Below are positions 56,695 to 61,685 of a stretch of 64,000 nt of DNA, piece by piece (position 1 is the first letter of the stretch; every line of letters begins with the position of its first letter). The stretch is from Thermococcus sp. P6 (GTDB lineage Archaea > Methanobacteriota_B > Thermococci > Thermococcales > Thermococcaceae). Both the position numbers and the translations under genes were made by a program. The DNA lies in the NCBI RefSeq assembly GCF_002214525.1, contig NZ_CP015104.1:124001-188000 (forward strand), in the 5' to 3' direction. The notes beneath the pieces were generated by a model that saw nothing but the letters and a program-made list of their open reading frames with translations, searched no databases and was not told the DNA's origin.

Positions 56695-57306
56695 TTGGCT
56701 GAAAGGCTAAAGGGAACGACCACGGTCGGCATTGTATGTAAGGACGGCGTTGTTTTAGCGGCCGACAGGAGGGCATCGCTCGATAACATGGTGCTTTCGA
56801 AGAACGTTACCAAGGTGTTCCGGATAGATGATCATCTGGCCCTGGCCGGGGCCGGGAGCGTTGGAGACATCCTCTCACTCGTCAGGCTTCTAAGATCCGA
56901 GGCCAGACTTTACAGGGCAACGGTTGGAAGGGAGATGAGCGTCAGGGCCCTCGCCACGTTAACCTCCAACGTGCTCCATGGCAGCAGGATCATGCCCTAC
57001 TTCGGGTGGTTTCTCGTGGCGGGTTACGACGAAAAACCCCGACTTTACTCGGTGGATATGGCCGGGGGTGTTACGGAAGACAGGTTCACCTCGGCCGGTT
57101 CTGGAATGGAGTTCGCCTTTGCGGTTCTTGAGGAAGGTTACGAGGATGATATGGAACTCGAGGAGGGAATCAGGCTCGCCCTCCGGGCCATAAAGGTGGC
57201 CACGAGAAGGGACGTCTTCACTGGAGACGGGGTAACCCTCGTCACCGTAACGGCCGGGGGTTACAGGGAACTAGGCAAAGAGGAAATAAGAGCCCTTCTG
57301 GAGTGA
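56695..57306 (+). CDS. psmB: Proteasome beta subunit
   Basis: Catalytic subunit of the 20S proteasome, a 203-residue Ntn-hydrolase. A seven-residue propeptide (MAERLKG) precedes the catalytic threonine of [21 protein letters not shown]; the aspartate and lysine of the active site are visible ([14 protein letters not shown]), and [12 protein letters not shown] matches beta-type subunits. The start is TTG 56695 after ggggtgttgtag. Thermococcales usually have two beta subunits; only one is in the window. FttA follows after 4 bases. Confidence 0.95.
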
Positions 57307-57310
57307 GGTG

Positions 57311-59263
57311 ATGGCTTTGATAAGAAGAGAGACGTTCGTTGATGACGTTTTGAAGGACATAAAGGCAATTATAAGACAGATGGTTCCAAGGGAAGCCGGA
57401 ATAACGGAAGTTGAGTTCGAGGGACCCGAGCTGGTCATATACGTCAGGAACCCCGACGCGATAATGAGGGACGAGAACCTGATAAGGAACCTCGCCAAGG
57501 TTCTCAAAAAGCGCATAAGCGTTCGTCCCGATCCGGATGTTCTTCTGCCACCGGAGAAGGCGGAGGAGCTGATAAGGGAGATAGTTCCGCCCGAGGCTGA
57601 GATAAGCAACATAAGCTTTGATCCATCGGTTGGCGAGGTCCTCATAGAGGCCAGAAAACCGGGGCTGGTGATAGGAAAGAACGGCGAAACACTCAGGCTC
57701 ATAACCCAGAGGGTCCACTGGGCCCCCAGAGTGGTTAGGACCCCACCCCTGCAGAGCCAGACGATATACTCGATAAGGCAGATACTTCAGGCGGAGGCCA
57801 AAGACCGCAGGAAGTTTCTCAGGAACGTTGGAAGAAACATCTACCGCAAGCCCGAGTTGAAGAGCGATTGGATCAGGATAACCGGTCTCGGCGGTTTCAG
57901 GGAGGTCGGCAGGAGTGCCCTTCTCCTCCAGACCAACGAAAGCTACGTGCTTGTCGATTTCGGCGTCAACGTAGCGGCCCTCAGGGATCCCAAAAAGGCC
58001 TTTCCGCACTTTGATGCTCCGGAGTTCAGGTACGTCCTCGACGCCGGCCTGCTGGATGCGGTGGTTATAACCCACGCCCACCTCGACCACTCAGGAATGC
58101 TCCCCTACCTGTTCCGCTACAAGCTCTTTGATGGGCCCGTTTACGCCACTCCACCAACGAGGGACCTCATGGTTCTCCTGCAGCAGGACTTCATCGAGAT
58201 ACAGAAGATGAACGGCGTAGAACCCCTTTACCGGCCGAGGGACATCAAGGATGTAATAAAGCACACGATAACCCTCGATTACGGGGAGGTTCGTGATATA
58301 GCACCCGACATAAGGCTCACCCTCCACAACGCGGGCCACATCCTCGGCTCCTCGATAGTCCACCTCCACATAGGCAACGGGCTCCACAACATAGCCATAA
58401 CCGGTGATTTCAAGTTCATCCCGACGAGGCTCTTCGAGCCGGCCGTGAACAGGTTCCCGCGCCTCGAGACTCTCGTGATGGAGTCCACCTACGGTGGAAG
58501 CAACGACTATCAGATGCCCCGCGAGGAGGCCGAGAAGAGGCTGATAGAGGTCATCCACCAGACCATCAGGAGGGGAGGCAAGGTCCTGATCCCGGCCATG
58601 GCCGTTGGGAGGGCTCAGGAGATAATGATGGTCCTCGAGGAGTACGCCCGCGTCGGTGGAATAGACGTGCCCGTGTACCTCGACGGGATGATATGGGAGG
58701 CCACGGCCATACACACCGCCTACCCGGAGTACCTCAGCAGGCACCTGCGCGAGCAGATATTCCACGAGGGTTACAACCCCTTCCTGAACCCGATATTCAA
58801 GCCCGTCGCCAACAGCAGGGAGAGGCAGGATATAATAGACTCGGGTGAGCCCGCGATAATCGTGGCCACCTCCGGCATGCTCGTGGGAGGGCCCAGCGTG
58901 GAGTACTTCAAGCAACTCGCCCCGGATCCGAAGAACAGCATGGTGTTCGTCAGCTATCAGGCCGAGGGAACCCTCGGAAGGCAGGTCCAGAGGGGCATGA
59001 GGGAGATTCCGCTGGTCGGGGAGGACGGAAAGACGGAAGTCGTCAACGTCAACATGGAGGTTCACACCATCGACGGCTTTTCCGGTCACGCCGACAGAAG
59101 GGAGCTCATCAGCTACGTCGCCCGCCTGAGGCCAAAACCCGAGAGGGTCATAACCGTCCACGGGGAGTCCCACAAGTGCCTCGATCTCTCAACGAGCATC
59201 CACAAGAAGTTCGGAATCTCAACGAGGGCCCCGAACAACCTCGACGCCATAAGGCTCAAGTAA
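57311..59263 (+). CDS. fttA: Transcription termination nuclease FttA (aCPSF1)
   Basis: 650-residue beta-CASP metallo-beta-lactamase that cleaves nascent RNA and terminates transcription in archaea. Two KH RNA-binding domains occupy residues 1-145 (with GLVIGKNGETLRLI), then the lactamase core with THAHLDHSG (motif 2), HNAGHILGSS, ITGDFKF and the beta-CASP segment ending SGHADRRELI and VHGESHKC. ATG 57311 follows gagtgaggtg. The psmB-fttA pair is conserved in archaea. Confidence 0.96.
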   Translation: MALIRRETFVDDVLKDIKAIIRQMVPREAGITEVEFEGPELVIYVRNPDAIMRDENLIRNLAKVLKKRISVRPDPDVLLPPEKAEELIREIVPPEAEISNISFDPSVGEVLIEARKPGLVIGKNGETLRLITQRVHWAPRVVRTPPLQSQTIYSIRQILQAEAKDRRKFLRNVGRNIYRKPELKSDWIRITGLGGFREVGRSALLLQTNESYVLVDFGVNVAALRDPKKAFPHFDAPEFRYVLDAGLLDAVVITHAHLDHSGMLPYLFRYKLFDGPVYATPPTRDLMVLLQQDFIEIQKMNGVEPLYRPRDIKDVIKHTITLDYGEVRDIAPDIRLTLHNAGHILGSSIVHLHIGNGLHNIAITGDFKFIPTRLFEPAVNRFPRLETLVMESTYGGSNDYQMPREEAEKRLIEVIHQTIRRGGKVLIPAMAVGRAQEIMMVLEEYARVGGIDVPVYLDGMIWEATAIHTAYPEYLSRHLREQIFHEGYNPFLNPIFKPVANSRERQDIIDSGEPAIIVATSGMLVGGPSVEYFKQLAPDPKNSMVFVSYQAEGTLGRQVQRGMREIPLVGEDGKTEVVNVNMEVHTIDGFSGHADRRELISYVARLRPKPERVITVHGESHKCLDLSTSIHKKFGISTRAPNNLDAIRLK

Positions 59264-59272
59264 GGGATCCCG

Positions 59273-60607
59273 ATGCGGGTTCGCTGTCCCTCCTGCGGAA
59301 GGCCCTACGATTCCATTGTTCCCCCCACCTGCTCCTGCGGGGAACCCCTCAGGCTCAGCTACGACTACGACTCGGTGGACGTTTCCAGATGGGAAAGGAG
59401 AGTGCCCGGCGTCTGGAGGTACCGCGAGCTTCTTCCAGATGTTAAACGAATCGTCAGTCTGAGCGAGGGGGGAACACCCCTTCTGAGGGCGAAGCTCGGC
59501 GAGGAACTCGGGCTGAGGGTGTTCATAAAAGACGAAACCCGAAACCCCACGGGTTCCTTCCGTGACAGGCTCATCACCGTTGCCGTCTCCTACGGCCTGC
59601 CCTACGCCCGGAAGGGCTTCATCGTGGCGAGCAACGGAAACGCGGCTGCGTCCCTCGCGGCATACGCATCGCGGGCCGGAAAGCCGGCTTACACGGTGGT
59701 TCCGAAGCTGATCGAAGAGGGAAAGCTCAACCAGATAGTGGCCCTCGGTGCAAAGCTCGTACGCTACGGTGAGAGCGTCGATGAGGGCATAGGCTACGCT
59801 GAGGAGCTTGCTGAGAGGGAGGGACTCTACAACGTCACCCCCGAGAGCAACATCATAGGACTCGAGGGGCAGAAAACGCTCGCCTTCGAGCTCTGGGAGG
59901 AGCTGAAGCCGACCCACATCGTGGTTCCCACGGGGAGCGGAAGCAACCTCTACAGCATCTACAGGGGCCTGGCCGAGCTCAGAAGGATCGGCGTCCTCGA
60001 GGAGATGCCGGAACTCATAGCCGTCCAGACGGAGAGGTGTTCCCCCATAGCGAGCGAGGTTCTCGGTCTCGAACCGAGGGCCGAGCCGACGAGGGCGCTT
60101 GCGCTGTACGTTAAGGATCCGGTCATGAAGGAACTCGCCCTCGAGGCCATAAGGGAAACGGGTGGAACCGCCGTGGTGGTCGGTGAGGACGAGCTCGACC
60201 TCGGGCAGAGGCTACTTGCTGGAGAAGGCATCTTCGGGGAATACGCTTCAGCGGTCATAATCCCGGCCTTCCTCAAGCTCGCGGAAGAGGGACACTTCGA
60301 GAGGGACGACAGGATAGCCCTCGTAGTGACGAGTTCCGGCCTCAAGGGCCATTACCACGAAACCCGGGAGAAGTTCACCCTTGGCGGAACGAAGCTCGAG
60401 ATACTGAGGCTCCTCAGCGGGAGGAGAATGTACGGCTACGAGATATGGGAGGCCCTCAGGAAACCCGTCAGGTATCAGGCGGTGTACCAGCACCTCAGGG
60501 AGCTCGAGAGCCTTGGACTCATAGGAGAATCCCACAGGGAAGGGAGACGGGTGTATTACAGGTTAACGGAAAAGGGACGGAAGTTCCTTGAGACGCTTTC
60601 GGAATAA
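59273..60607 (+). CDS. Threonine-synthase-like protein without PLP lysine, fused to PadR-like domain
   Basis: 444 residues. Residues 1-30 hold a zinc ribbon (CPSCGRPYD, CSCGEPL) typical of archaeal threonine synthases; residues 60-360 are a fold-type II PLP domain (KDETRNPTGSFRDR, ASNGNAAASLAAYASRAG, VPTGSGSNLYSIY, TSSGLKGHYHE). The lysine that binds PLP, in the family's NPTGSFKDR, is arginine here (CGT codon near 59560). Residues 370-444 form a PadR/MarR-like winged helix (KLEILRLLSGRRMYGYEIWEAL, AVYQHLRELESLGLIG, GRRVYYRLTEKGRKFLETL). I infer a ligand-sensing DNA-binding protein, not an enzyme. It is the third gene of the psmB-fttA operon. Confidence 0.85.
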   Translation: MRVRCPSCGRPYDSIVPPTCSCGEPLRLSYDYDSVDVSRWERRVPGVWRYRELLPDVKRIVSLSEGGTPLLRAKLGEELGLRVFIKDETRNPTGSFRDRLITVAVSYGLPYARKGFIVASNGNAAASLAAYASRAGKPAYTVVPKLIEEGKLNQIVALGAKLVRYGESVDEGIGYAEELAEREGLYNVTPESNIIGLEGQKTLAFELWEELKPTHIVVPTGSGSNLYSIYRGLAELRRIGVLEEMPELIAVQTERCSPIASEVLGLEPRAEPTRALALYVKDPVMKELALEAIRETGGTAVVVGEDELDLGQRLLAGEGIFGEYASAVIIPAFLKLAEEGHFERDDRIALVVTSSGLKGHYHETREKFTLGGTKLEILRLLSGRRMYGYEIWEALRKPVRYQAVYQHLRELESLGLIGESHREGRRVYYRLTEKGRKFLETLSE

Positions 60608-60655
60608 CGGAAAGGTTTTAAAAGGTCTTTTTAAAGCTAAGCGTGGGTGAAGAAG

Positions 60656-60997
60656 GTGAAGCTAACGCCTGAAAACAAGTTCTCGCTCTCAGTCTACCTC
60701 TGGGGACTCATCTGTGGTCTGGTCAGTGGTATCGCAGCTACCAGGGTTCAGTACGGCTGGGTTACGGGCCTTGTGCTCTTTCTCCTCACGGATAAGGTTG
60801 TCATGGCGATGATAAAGACGCTTCCGCCGGAGATTGAAGAGGGTCAGATACTCAAGAAGGCCTTCTGGGGATGGCTCCTGTTCTGGCTTTACTTCACCAT
60901 GCTAAGCTACACCGTGATGGTCAACTTCCAGCCGGAGTTCTACTCGAACCAGAGCCTGCTTTACAGACTGACCCATAACGGAACGGTGGTGGGGTGA
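60656..60997 (+). CDS. Small membrane protein, function unknown
   Basis: 113 residues with three hydrophobic segments (FSLSVYLWGLICGLVSGIAA; YGWVTGLVLFLLTDKVVMAM; AFWGWLLFWLYFTMLSYTVMV). The start is taken as GTG 60656 (site gggtgaagaag); GTG 60647 is possible. TATA-like aaggttttaaaagg at about 60612 gives it a promoter independent of the preceding gene. The stop is 4 bases before rpiA, so the two are co-expressed. I do not recognise the family. Confidence 0.65.
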   Translation: MKLTPENKFSLSVYLWGLICGLVSGIAATRVQYGWVTGLVLFLLTDKVVMAMIKTLPPEIEEGQILKKAFWGWLLFWLYFTMLSYTVMVNFQPEFYSNQSLLYRLTHNGTVVG

Positions 60998-61001
60998 GTC
61001 C

Positions 61002-61685
61002 ATGGAGGAGCTGAAGAAGGCCGTCGCAAGGGAAGCTTTGAAGTTCGTGGAGGACGACATGGTAATCGGTCTCGGCACCGGCTCCACAGCAGGATACTTC
61101 ATCAGGTACCTCGGCAGGCTCATCATGGAGGAGGAGCTTCAGGACGTCTACGCCATTCCCACGTCCTATCAGTCGAGACTCCTTGCCATTGAGAGCGGAG
61201 TTCCCGTCGTGGGCCTTGACGAGGTGGACGCTATAGATGTAGCCGTTGACGGTGCCGATGAGGTGGATCCGAACATGAACCTCATAAAGGGTCGCGGTGC
61301 AGCCCTGACCATGGAGAAGGCCATAGAATACCGCGCCGGAACTTTCCTCGTCCTCGTGGACGAGAGCAAGCTCGTCGAGAGGCTCGGCCAGAAGATGCCC
61401 GTTCCCATTGAGGTCATTCCTCAAGTCTGGCGTGCCGTGGCGGAGGAGGTGGAGATCTTCAACGCCGAGGCCGAGCTGAGGATGGCCGCCAGAAAGGACG
61501 GACCCGTCGTCACGGAAAACGGCAACTTCATCCTTGACGTTAGATTCCACCGCATAGCTGATCCGCTCGACCTTGAGATGGAGCTCAACAACATTCCCGG
61601 GGTCGTTGAGAACGGTATCTTCGCCGACGTGGCGGATGTTGTTCTGGTGGGAACGAGGGAAGGCGTCAAAAGAATGGAACGCTGA
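61002..61685 (+). CDS. rpiA: Ribose-5-phosphate isomerase A
   Basis: Interconverts ribulose-5-phosphate and ribose-5-phosphate for nucleotide and histidine precursors; in Thermococcales it works with the ribulose monophosphate route in place of the oxidative pentose phosphate pathway. The 227-residue protein has GLGTGSTAGYFI, DVAVDGADEVDPNMNLIKG and KGRGAALTMEKAIE with catalytic aspartate, glutamate and lysine. The start follows ggggtgagtcc. Confidence 0.96.
   Translation: MEELKKAVAREALKFVEDDMVIGLGTGSTAGYFIRYLGRLIMEEELQDVYAIPTSYQSRLLAIESGVPVVGLDEVDAIDVAVDGADEVDPNMNLIKGRGAALTMEKAIEYRAGTFLVLVDESKLVERLGQKMPVPIEVIPQVWRAVAEEVEIFNAEAELRMAARKDGPVVTENGNFILDVRFHRIADPLDLEMELNNIPGVVENGIFADVADVVLVGTREGVKRMER

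Follow-up and report, generated by a model that had tools for sequence, protein, structure and literature searches.

RbkR and ThiR, two vitamin regulators of Thermococcales, are fusions of an enzyme domain with a winged helix (wHTH). Their regulons, for riboflavin and thiamin respectively, have been predicted in P. furiosus (PMC10746257). In bacteria, the MocR-family regulator PdxR likewise joins a sensor derived from a PLP enzyme to a winged helix, and its regulon comprises pdxST, pdxK and pdxU (PMC5320631). The open-access literature that we searched yielded neither an archaeal regulator of vitamin B6 genes nor a description of the fusion reported here as a regulator.

The window, a stretch of 64,000 nucleotides (C1:124001-188000) from the 1.52 Mb genome of Thermococcus sp. 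P6, contains a gene labelled 'threonine synthase' whose product is most likely a DNA-binding switch made from a dead enzyme rather than an enzyme. We computed the architecture of this protein, the loss of its lysine, its co-occurrence and adjacency with the gene for an ECF transporter S component (hereafter the S gene), and an operator together with its tracking of the regulator. The protein is probably an archaeal B6-responsive repressor, the fold-type-II counterpart of bacterial MocR/PdxR. The gene and its parts lie at the following window positions.

59273..60607, + strand: regulator gene, ATG start, 444 amino acids; threonine-synthase-like domain with Arg97 and a C-terminal PadR-like winged helix.
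59285..59338, + strand: N-terminal zinc-ribbon cysteines C5, C8, C20 and C22, conserved in the arginine and lysine sets; predicted zinc site.
59453..60331, + strand: PLP-dependent-enzyme domain (fold type II), residues 61-353, from Pfam and the structure model.
59561..59563, + strand: codon CGT for Arg97, at the site where NPTGSFKDR has its Schiff-base lysine.
60389..60601, + strand: PadR-like winged helix, residues 373-443, from Pfam, model and alignment, with the conserved recognition-helix region QAVYQHL.

A reading of this DNA from its letters alone (the sequence-only reading) had described a threonine synthase with every landmark in place, an arginine for the lysine and a complete winged helix, and this is confirmed by Pfam, by an alignment of 69 arginine-type and 22 lysine-type proteins, and by a structure model. 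In the 444-residue protein, Pfam places PALP at residues 61-353 (E 1.2e-65) and PadR (PF03551) at residues 377-440 (E 5.5e-9; 36.3 bits against a curated cut-off of 27). The AlphaFold model has a mean pLDDT of 85, and its best PDB matches are the threonine synthases 2d1f, 1uin and 6nmx, with TM-scores above 0.8 on the target. Because the linker (residues 357-371) has pLDDT below 50, the model does not fix the placement of the two domains relative to each other. The zinc-ribbon cysteines are common to the regulator and its lysine-type archaeal homologues.

The protein has the fold-type-II PLP domain of a threonine synthase but lacks the Schiff-base lysine, its motif at that site being KDETRNPTGSFRDR with Arg97 (NPTGSFRDR). 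Position 97 is arginine in 69/69 arginine-type and lysine in 22/22 lysine-type proteins, and it is the only column of the enzyme domain that is at least 85% conserved in both sets with differing residues. The pocket residues K86, E88, S95, F96, D98, R99, G122, N123, T353 and K358 are shared by the two sets. Catalysis by fold-type-II PLP enzymes requires the Schiff-base lysine.

The Arg motif recurs in 69 of 115 genomes of the host phylum and in most wHTH-bearing homologues from Thermoproteota, so the combination of Arg97 and wHTH is not a local sequencing accident. The same pattern search found the motif in 45 of 398 genomes from Thermoproteota (the phylum of genome G062), and the enzyme-wHTH fusion recurs in Thermococci and Thermoproteota alike. 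A few of the arginine-type loci examined are cut by contig ends; of those complete to the C-terminus, nearly all have the wHTH. In a tree of 94 proteins, which is midpoint-rooted and has long branches, 23 lysine proteins fall on one side of a branch with support of 100/99, and L054 is the only lysine row amid arginine rows. Judged from these sequences, a single Lys-to-Arg change in the family is likely.

As the Arg pattern itself selects arginine, a second search of the 398 Thermoproteota genomes used the family alignment, and it retrieved 20 full-length matches without the exact pattern. Some are arginine variants (NPTNSYRDR and similar, NPTGSVRDR); others have M (L289), F (L301), I (L302, L304), V (L303), L (L305-L307), T (L308) or K (L298, L299) at the lysine site. 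The expectation that arginine and the C-terminal domain would always occur together was rejected as a strict rule in view of these other residues and the two lysine-bearing fusions. Still, nearly all fusions are without the lysine, and most of them have arginine. Given these residues, it is the loss of lysine, rather than arginine itself, that the wHTH accompanies, with the full-length L298 and L299 and the fragment L054 as exceptions. The sequence-only reading had named wHTH-bearing orthologues with lysine and threonine synthase activity as a case that would count against it. L298, L299 and the truncated L054 match that case in form, not in substance. No ECF gene adjoins L298 or L299, and the L054 genome keeps the operator before its S gene.

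Several members of the family stand apart. The lysine-bearing fusions L298 (genome G469) and L299 (genome G322) are possibly bifunctional or ancestral-like forms. The lysine orthologue L054 (3046-3444) is a fragment of 133 residues at a contig end, so placed that any wHTH would fall outside the contig; it stands behind a spermidine-synthase-like gene in a genome that lacks pdxS and has the S gene with its operator. L302-L308 are a sister group: threonine-synthase-like proteins fused to a wHTH, in which the lysine site is occupied by Ile, Val, Leu or Thr. Several of them adjoin an ECF S-like gene (divergent in L303-L305, downstream in L308). On contigs L144-L147 a lysine-type threonine-synthase paralogue lies near the regulator on the opposite strand, possibly a relic of duplication.

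Two more threonine-synthase-like genes lie elsewhere in the Thermococcus genome, one at C1:1199926 and one at C1:558616; each encodes the lysine, and neither has a wHTH. The sequence-only reading had proposed to look for a second, lysine-bearing threonine synthase; with these two candidates, threonine synthesis need not depend on the regulator gene. These paralogues bear on whether the public label is right and the protein is an unusual threonine synthase, with a still catalytic arginine and an accessory wHTH. The NCBIfam model NF004170/PRK05638, which spans the full 444 residues including the wHTH at 728 bits, does give the family the name 'threonine synthase', and two fusions retain the lysine. 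We nevertheless regard such an enzyme as highly improbable, given the established need of fold-type-II catalysis for lysine, the Met, Phe, Val, Ile, Leu or Thr at this site in wHTH relatives, and the lysine paralogues in the same genome; it would also leave the operator and transporter links described below unexplained.

Instead, the former enzyme is now very probably a transcription regulator, as had been proposed, to judge by the lysine paralogues, the co-occurrence of arginine and wHTH, and a cognate predicted operator that tracks the gene. Its neighbours in the window are as follows.

56695..57306, + strand: psmB (proteasome beta subunit), upstream; a conserved neighbour only in Thermococcaceae and outside the inferred mechanism.
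57308..59263, + strand: fttA/aCPSF1 (transcription termination factor), immediately upstream of the regulator; a Thermococcaceae-specific neighbour.
61002..61685, + strand: RpiA-like gene, downstream of the regulator; named by sequence inspection.

The order psmB-fttA-regulator is near-constant in Thermococcaceae loci long enough to show it, and could suggest that the regulator shares a role in protein turnover or termination with psmB and fttA, a link at which the sequence-only reading had hinted. It is not kept in family f4 or in Thermoproteota, and no operator match occurs near psmB in the window. We rejected this link, which we consider scarcely credible, since these neighbours are not conserved outside Thermococcaceae; elsewhere an ECF transporter gene adjoins the regulator.

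Between the regulator and rpiA (window 60647-60997) lies a gene for a small membrane protein that is kept across many Thermococcus loci; the protein has no significant Pfam match, the best, DUF6113, falling below cut-off. Ribose-5-phosphate and ribulose-5-phosphate are substrates of PdxST, and a weak functional link between the RpiA-like gene and PdxST is possible.

Among 30 Thermoproteota contigs, 23 of the 30 arginine-type genes are followed directly or almost directly by a gene for a membrane protein of one cluster, the tested members of which are, by Pfam, PF07155 ECF transporter S components. EcfA and EcfT stand behind the S component in several Thermoproteota contigs. ECF neighbours also occur at L303-L305, L308 and L289; a sequence motif, rather than Pfam, served to identify the S genes there.

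The PF07155/COG4720 family holds PdxU and PdxU2/HmpT (PMC9997740), and pyridoxamine is the preferred substrate of HmpT (structure 4hzu_S; PMC4860826). The S protein of the Thermococcus genome belongs to PF07155 and has HmpT (4hzu_S) as its best solved-structure match (E 1.4e-16), as expected of a PdxU/HmpT S component; other members of PF07155 are S components for different vitamins, and the assignment to B6 rests on pdxST and on the loss of pdxS. Within Thermococcaceae, the S gene is present in 28/28 genomes with the regulator versus 7/15 without it. Among Thermoproteota, PdxS is found in only 3 of 31 arginine-type genomes, as against 16 of the 29 that lack the Arg motif (Fisher p 2e-4; regulator presence follows phylogeny and the genomes are related, so that Fisher p-values overstate independence and are descriptive). 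When the sister fusions found among the 29 are moved to the regulator side, the counts become 5/39 versus 14/21. Given this rarity of PdxS, many regulator-bearing genomes appear to depend on imported B6. Six near-complete Thermococcaceae genomes (G065, G080, G102, G106, G114 and G115) lack PdxS while having both the S gene and the regulator, and are candidate natural B6 auxotrophs.

A palindrome with the shared core GTTnnAAC is the predicted operator, taking the form TTCAAGTTnnAACTTGAA in Thermococcaceae and TAGTATAGTTnnAACTATACTA in many Thermoproteota. In Thermococcaceae with the regulator, TTTCAAGTTnnAACTTGAAA or a variant lies upstream of the S gene, at or after a TATA-like box, whereas Thermococcaceae genomes with an S gene but no regulator showed no such palindrome there. 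In Thermoproteota, AATAGTATAGTTATAACTATACTATT, TTAAAGTTTAAACTTTAA and similar sequences often precede the S gene, although in a few contigs of this phylum the palindrome search found none there (for example, L141, L158 and L160). The site goes with the S gene even at a distance from the regulator: it precedes the gene in L206, L207 and L210, and in weaker form in L205, L208 and L209.

The pdxS gene of the Thermococcus genome, which is followed by pdxT, is preceded by TTATATTCAAGTTTTTTCTTGAATATAA. A consensus, TTCAAGTTNNAACTTGAA, was derived from S-gene upstream regions and then scored on pdxS upstream regions (maximum 16). Within Thermococcaceae, a score of at least 13 is reached before pdxS in 24/27 genomes with the regulator versus 0/15 without it; among 424 control regions upstream of other genes, one reaches 13 and none reaches 14. 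The site lies upstream of the S gene in 24/24 genomes with the regulator versus 0/7 without it, group g12 and family f4 being left out. All three pdxS failures belong to g12 (scores 11, 11 and 12), whose genomes have weak or half sites; the g12 S-gene upstream regions were inspected by eye and carry no scores. In f4 the palindrome differs (TATACAAG-N6-CTTGTATA, score 11). The L054 genome, with the lysine form, has a site before the S gene that scores 15/16.

Across the Thermococcus genome, the pattern WTNAAGT-N4-ACTTNAW has its sole exact match at C1:840345, which is 153 bases ahead of the S-gene match, and 8 one-mismatch sites, one of which (C1:579582) lies before pdxS. In genome G026 the same search placed two sites ahead of pdxS and one ahead of the S gene; G001 has one of each. 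A regulon search with the short pattern AAGTTNNAACTTGA and one mismatch gave matches no commoner than in the control, and by itself says nothing about the regulon. The predicted operators at pdxS and the PF07155 S gene would correspond to a regulon of the MocR/PdxR kind (pdxST and/or pdxU).

There is no operator match near the psmB-fttA-regulator operon within the window, and autoregulation was rejected on that ground. No common palindrome immediately precedes the regulator gene in Thermoproteota, the site preceding the S gene instead. Another conserved near-palindrome, TTCAAATCCnnATCTGAA, occurs near pdxS in Thermococcus genomes without the regulator (L246, L247, L249, L251, L233 and L253), and is perhaps the site of another regulator.

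We propose the following mechanism, of which DNA binding, dimerisation, ligand identity and direction of control are inferred. The former threonine-synthase domain would keep a PLP-type pocket yet be unable to form an internal aldimine, because its Schiff-base lysine is replaced by arginine; PLP, or another B6 vitamer or adduct, would be bound there non-covalently. With B6 in good supply, a dimer would use its PadR-like winged helices to bind the GTTnnAAC-core palindrome, which lies at the TATA box or a little downstream of it, and would thereby prevent transcription of the PLP synthase genes pdxST and of the S gene pdxU/hmpT (B6 uptake through an ECF transporter). When B6 is scarce, the protein would release DNA, and pdxST and the S gene would be expressed.

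The direction of control could be the reverse, with the protein an activator that switches on pdxST at low PLP, as does bacterial apo-PdxR, for which PLP is an anti-activator (PMC5320631). Repression is favoured, from position, since the palindrome coincides with the TATA box or follows it, close to where transcription is expected to start, and we think an activator rather doubtful. Slightly less doubtful, although still unlikely, is a protein that does control pdxST and the S gene, but with an amino acid, O-phosphohomoserine or a PLP-amino-acid external aldimine as its ligand in place of free PLP, or with an S gene that imports another vitamin. A substrate-like pocket may persist from its threonine-synthase ancestry, a lysine-type paralogue stands near the regulator on some Thermoproteota contigs (L144-L147), and PF07155 is a broad S family; yet the inferred targets are B6 genes, pdxS is depleted in arginine-type genomes, and neither lysine-type threonine-synthase gene of the Thermococcus genome (C1:1199926 and 558616) has an operator match nearby. 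The sequence-only reading had listed PLP, O-phosphohomoserine, threonine or an analogue as the ligand; the inferred targets, pdxST and a PdxU/HmpT-family S gene, favour PLP.

A B6-responsive repressor of this kind would represent convergent PLP sensing, achieved with a fold-type-I enzyme in bacteria and a fold-type-II enzyme in archaea. If correct, this assignment would amend the 'threonine synthase' label in many archaeal genomes and offer a simple testable system in the genetically tractable Thermococcus and Pyrococcus. It would also name a likely archaeal B6 transporter; B6 transporters are an acknowledged gap (PMC9997740). We consider it reasonably likely, with somewhat less assurance than for the protein in the window, that these proteins form an ancient archaeal transcription factor family, not previously described, that has a dead fold-type-II PLP enzyme for its B6 sensor, arose independently of MocR, and controls pdxST and ECF uptake; the Val/Ile/Leu/Thr sister group beside further ECF S genes may sense another ligand.

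Among known systems, threonine synthase (ThrC, fold type II) shares fold, zinc ribbon and pocket signature with the regulator, which differs in having no Schiff-base lysine and an additional wHTH. The protein is a full-length member of NF004170/PRK05638, the functional label of which is very probably wrong. Its winged helix passes the Pfam cut-off for the PadR family, although here the wHTH is fused behind an enzyme domain and the predicted operator has the core GTTnnAAC. RbkR and ThiR resemble the proposed B6 regulator as vitamin regulators of Thermococcales and differ in vitamin and enzyme fold. MocR regulators pair a fold-type-I aminotransferase domain with a GntR-type wHTH at the N-terminus, neither of which is found in the window protein; this archaeal protein instead has a fold-type-II domain of the threonine synthase kind, without lysine, and a C-terminal PadR-like wHTH. 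The combination of a PALP domain with a C-terminal PadR wHTH supports the earlier description of the protein as a fold-type-II mirror image of MocR.
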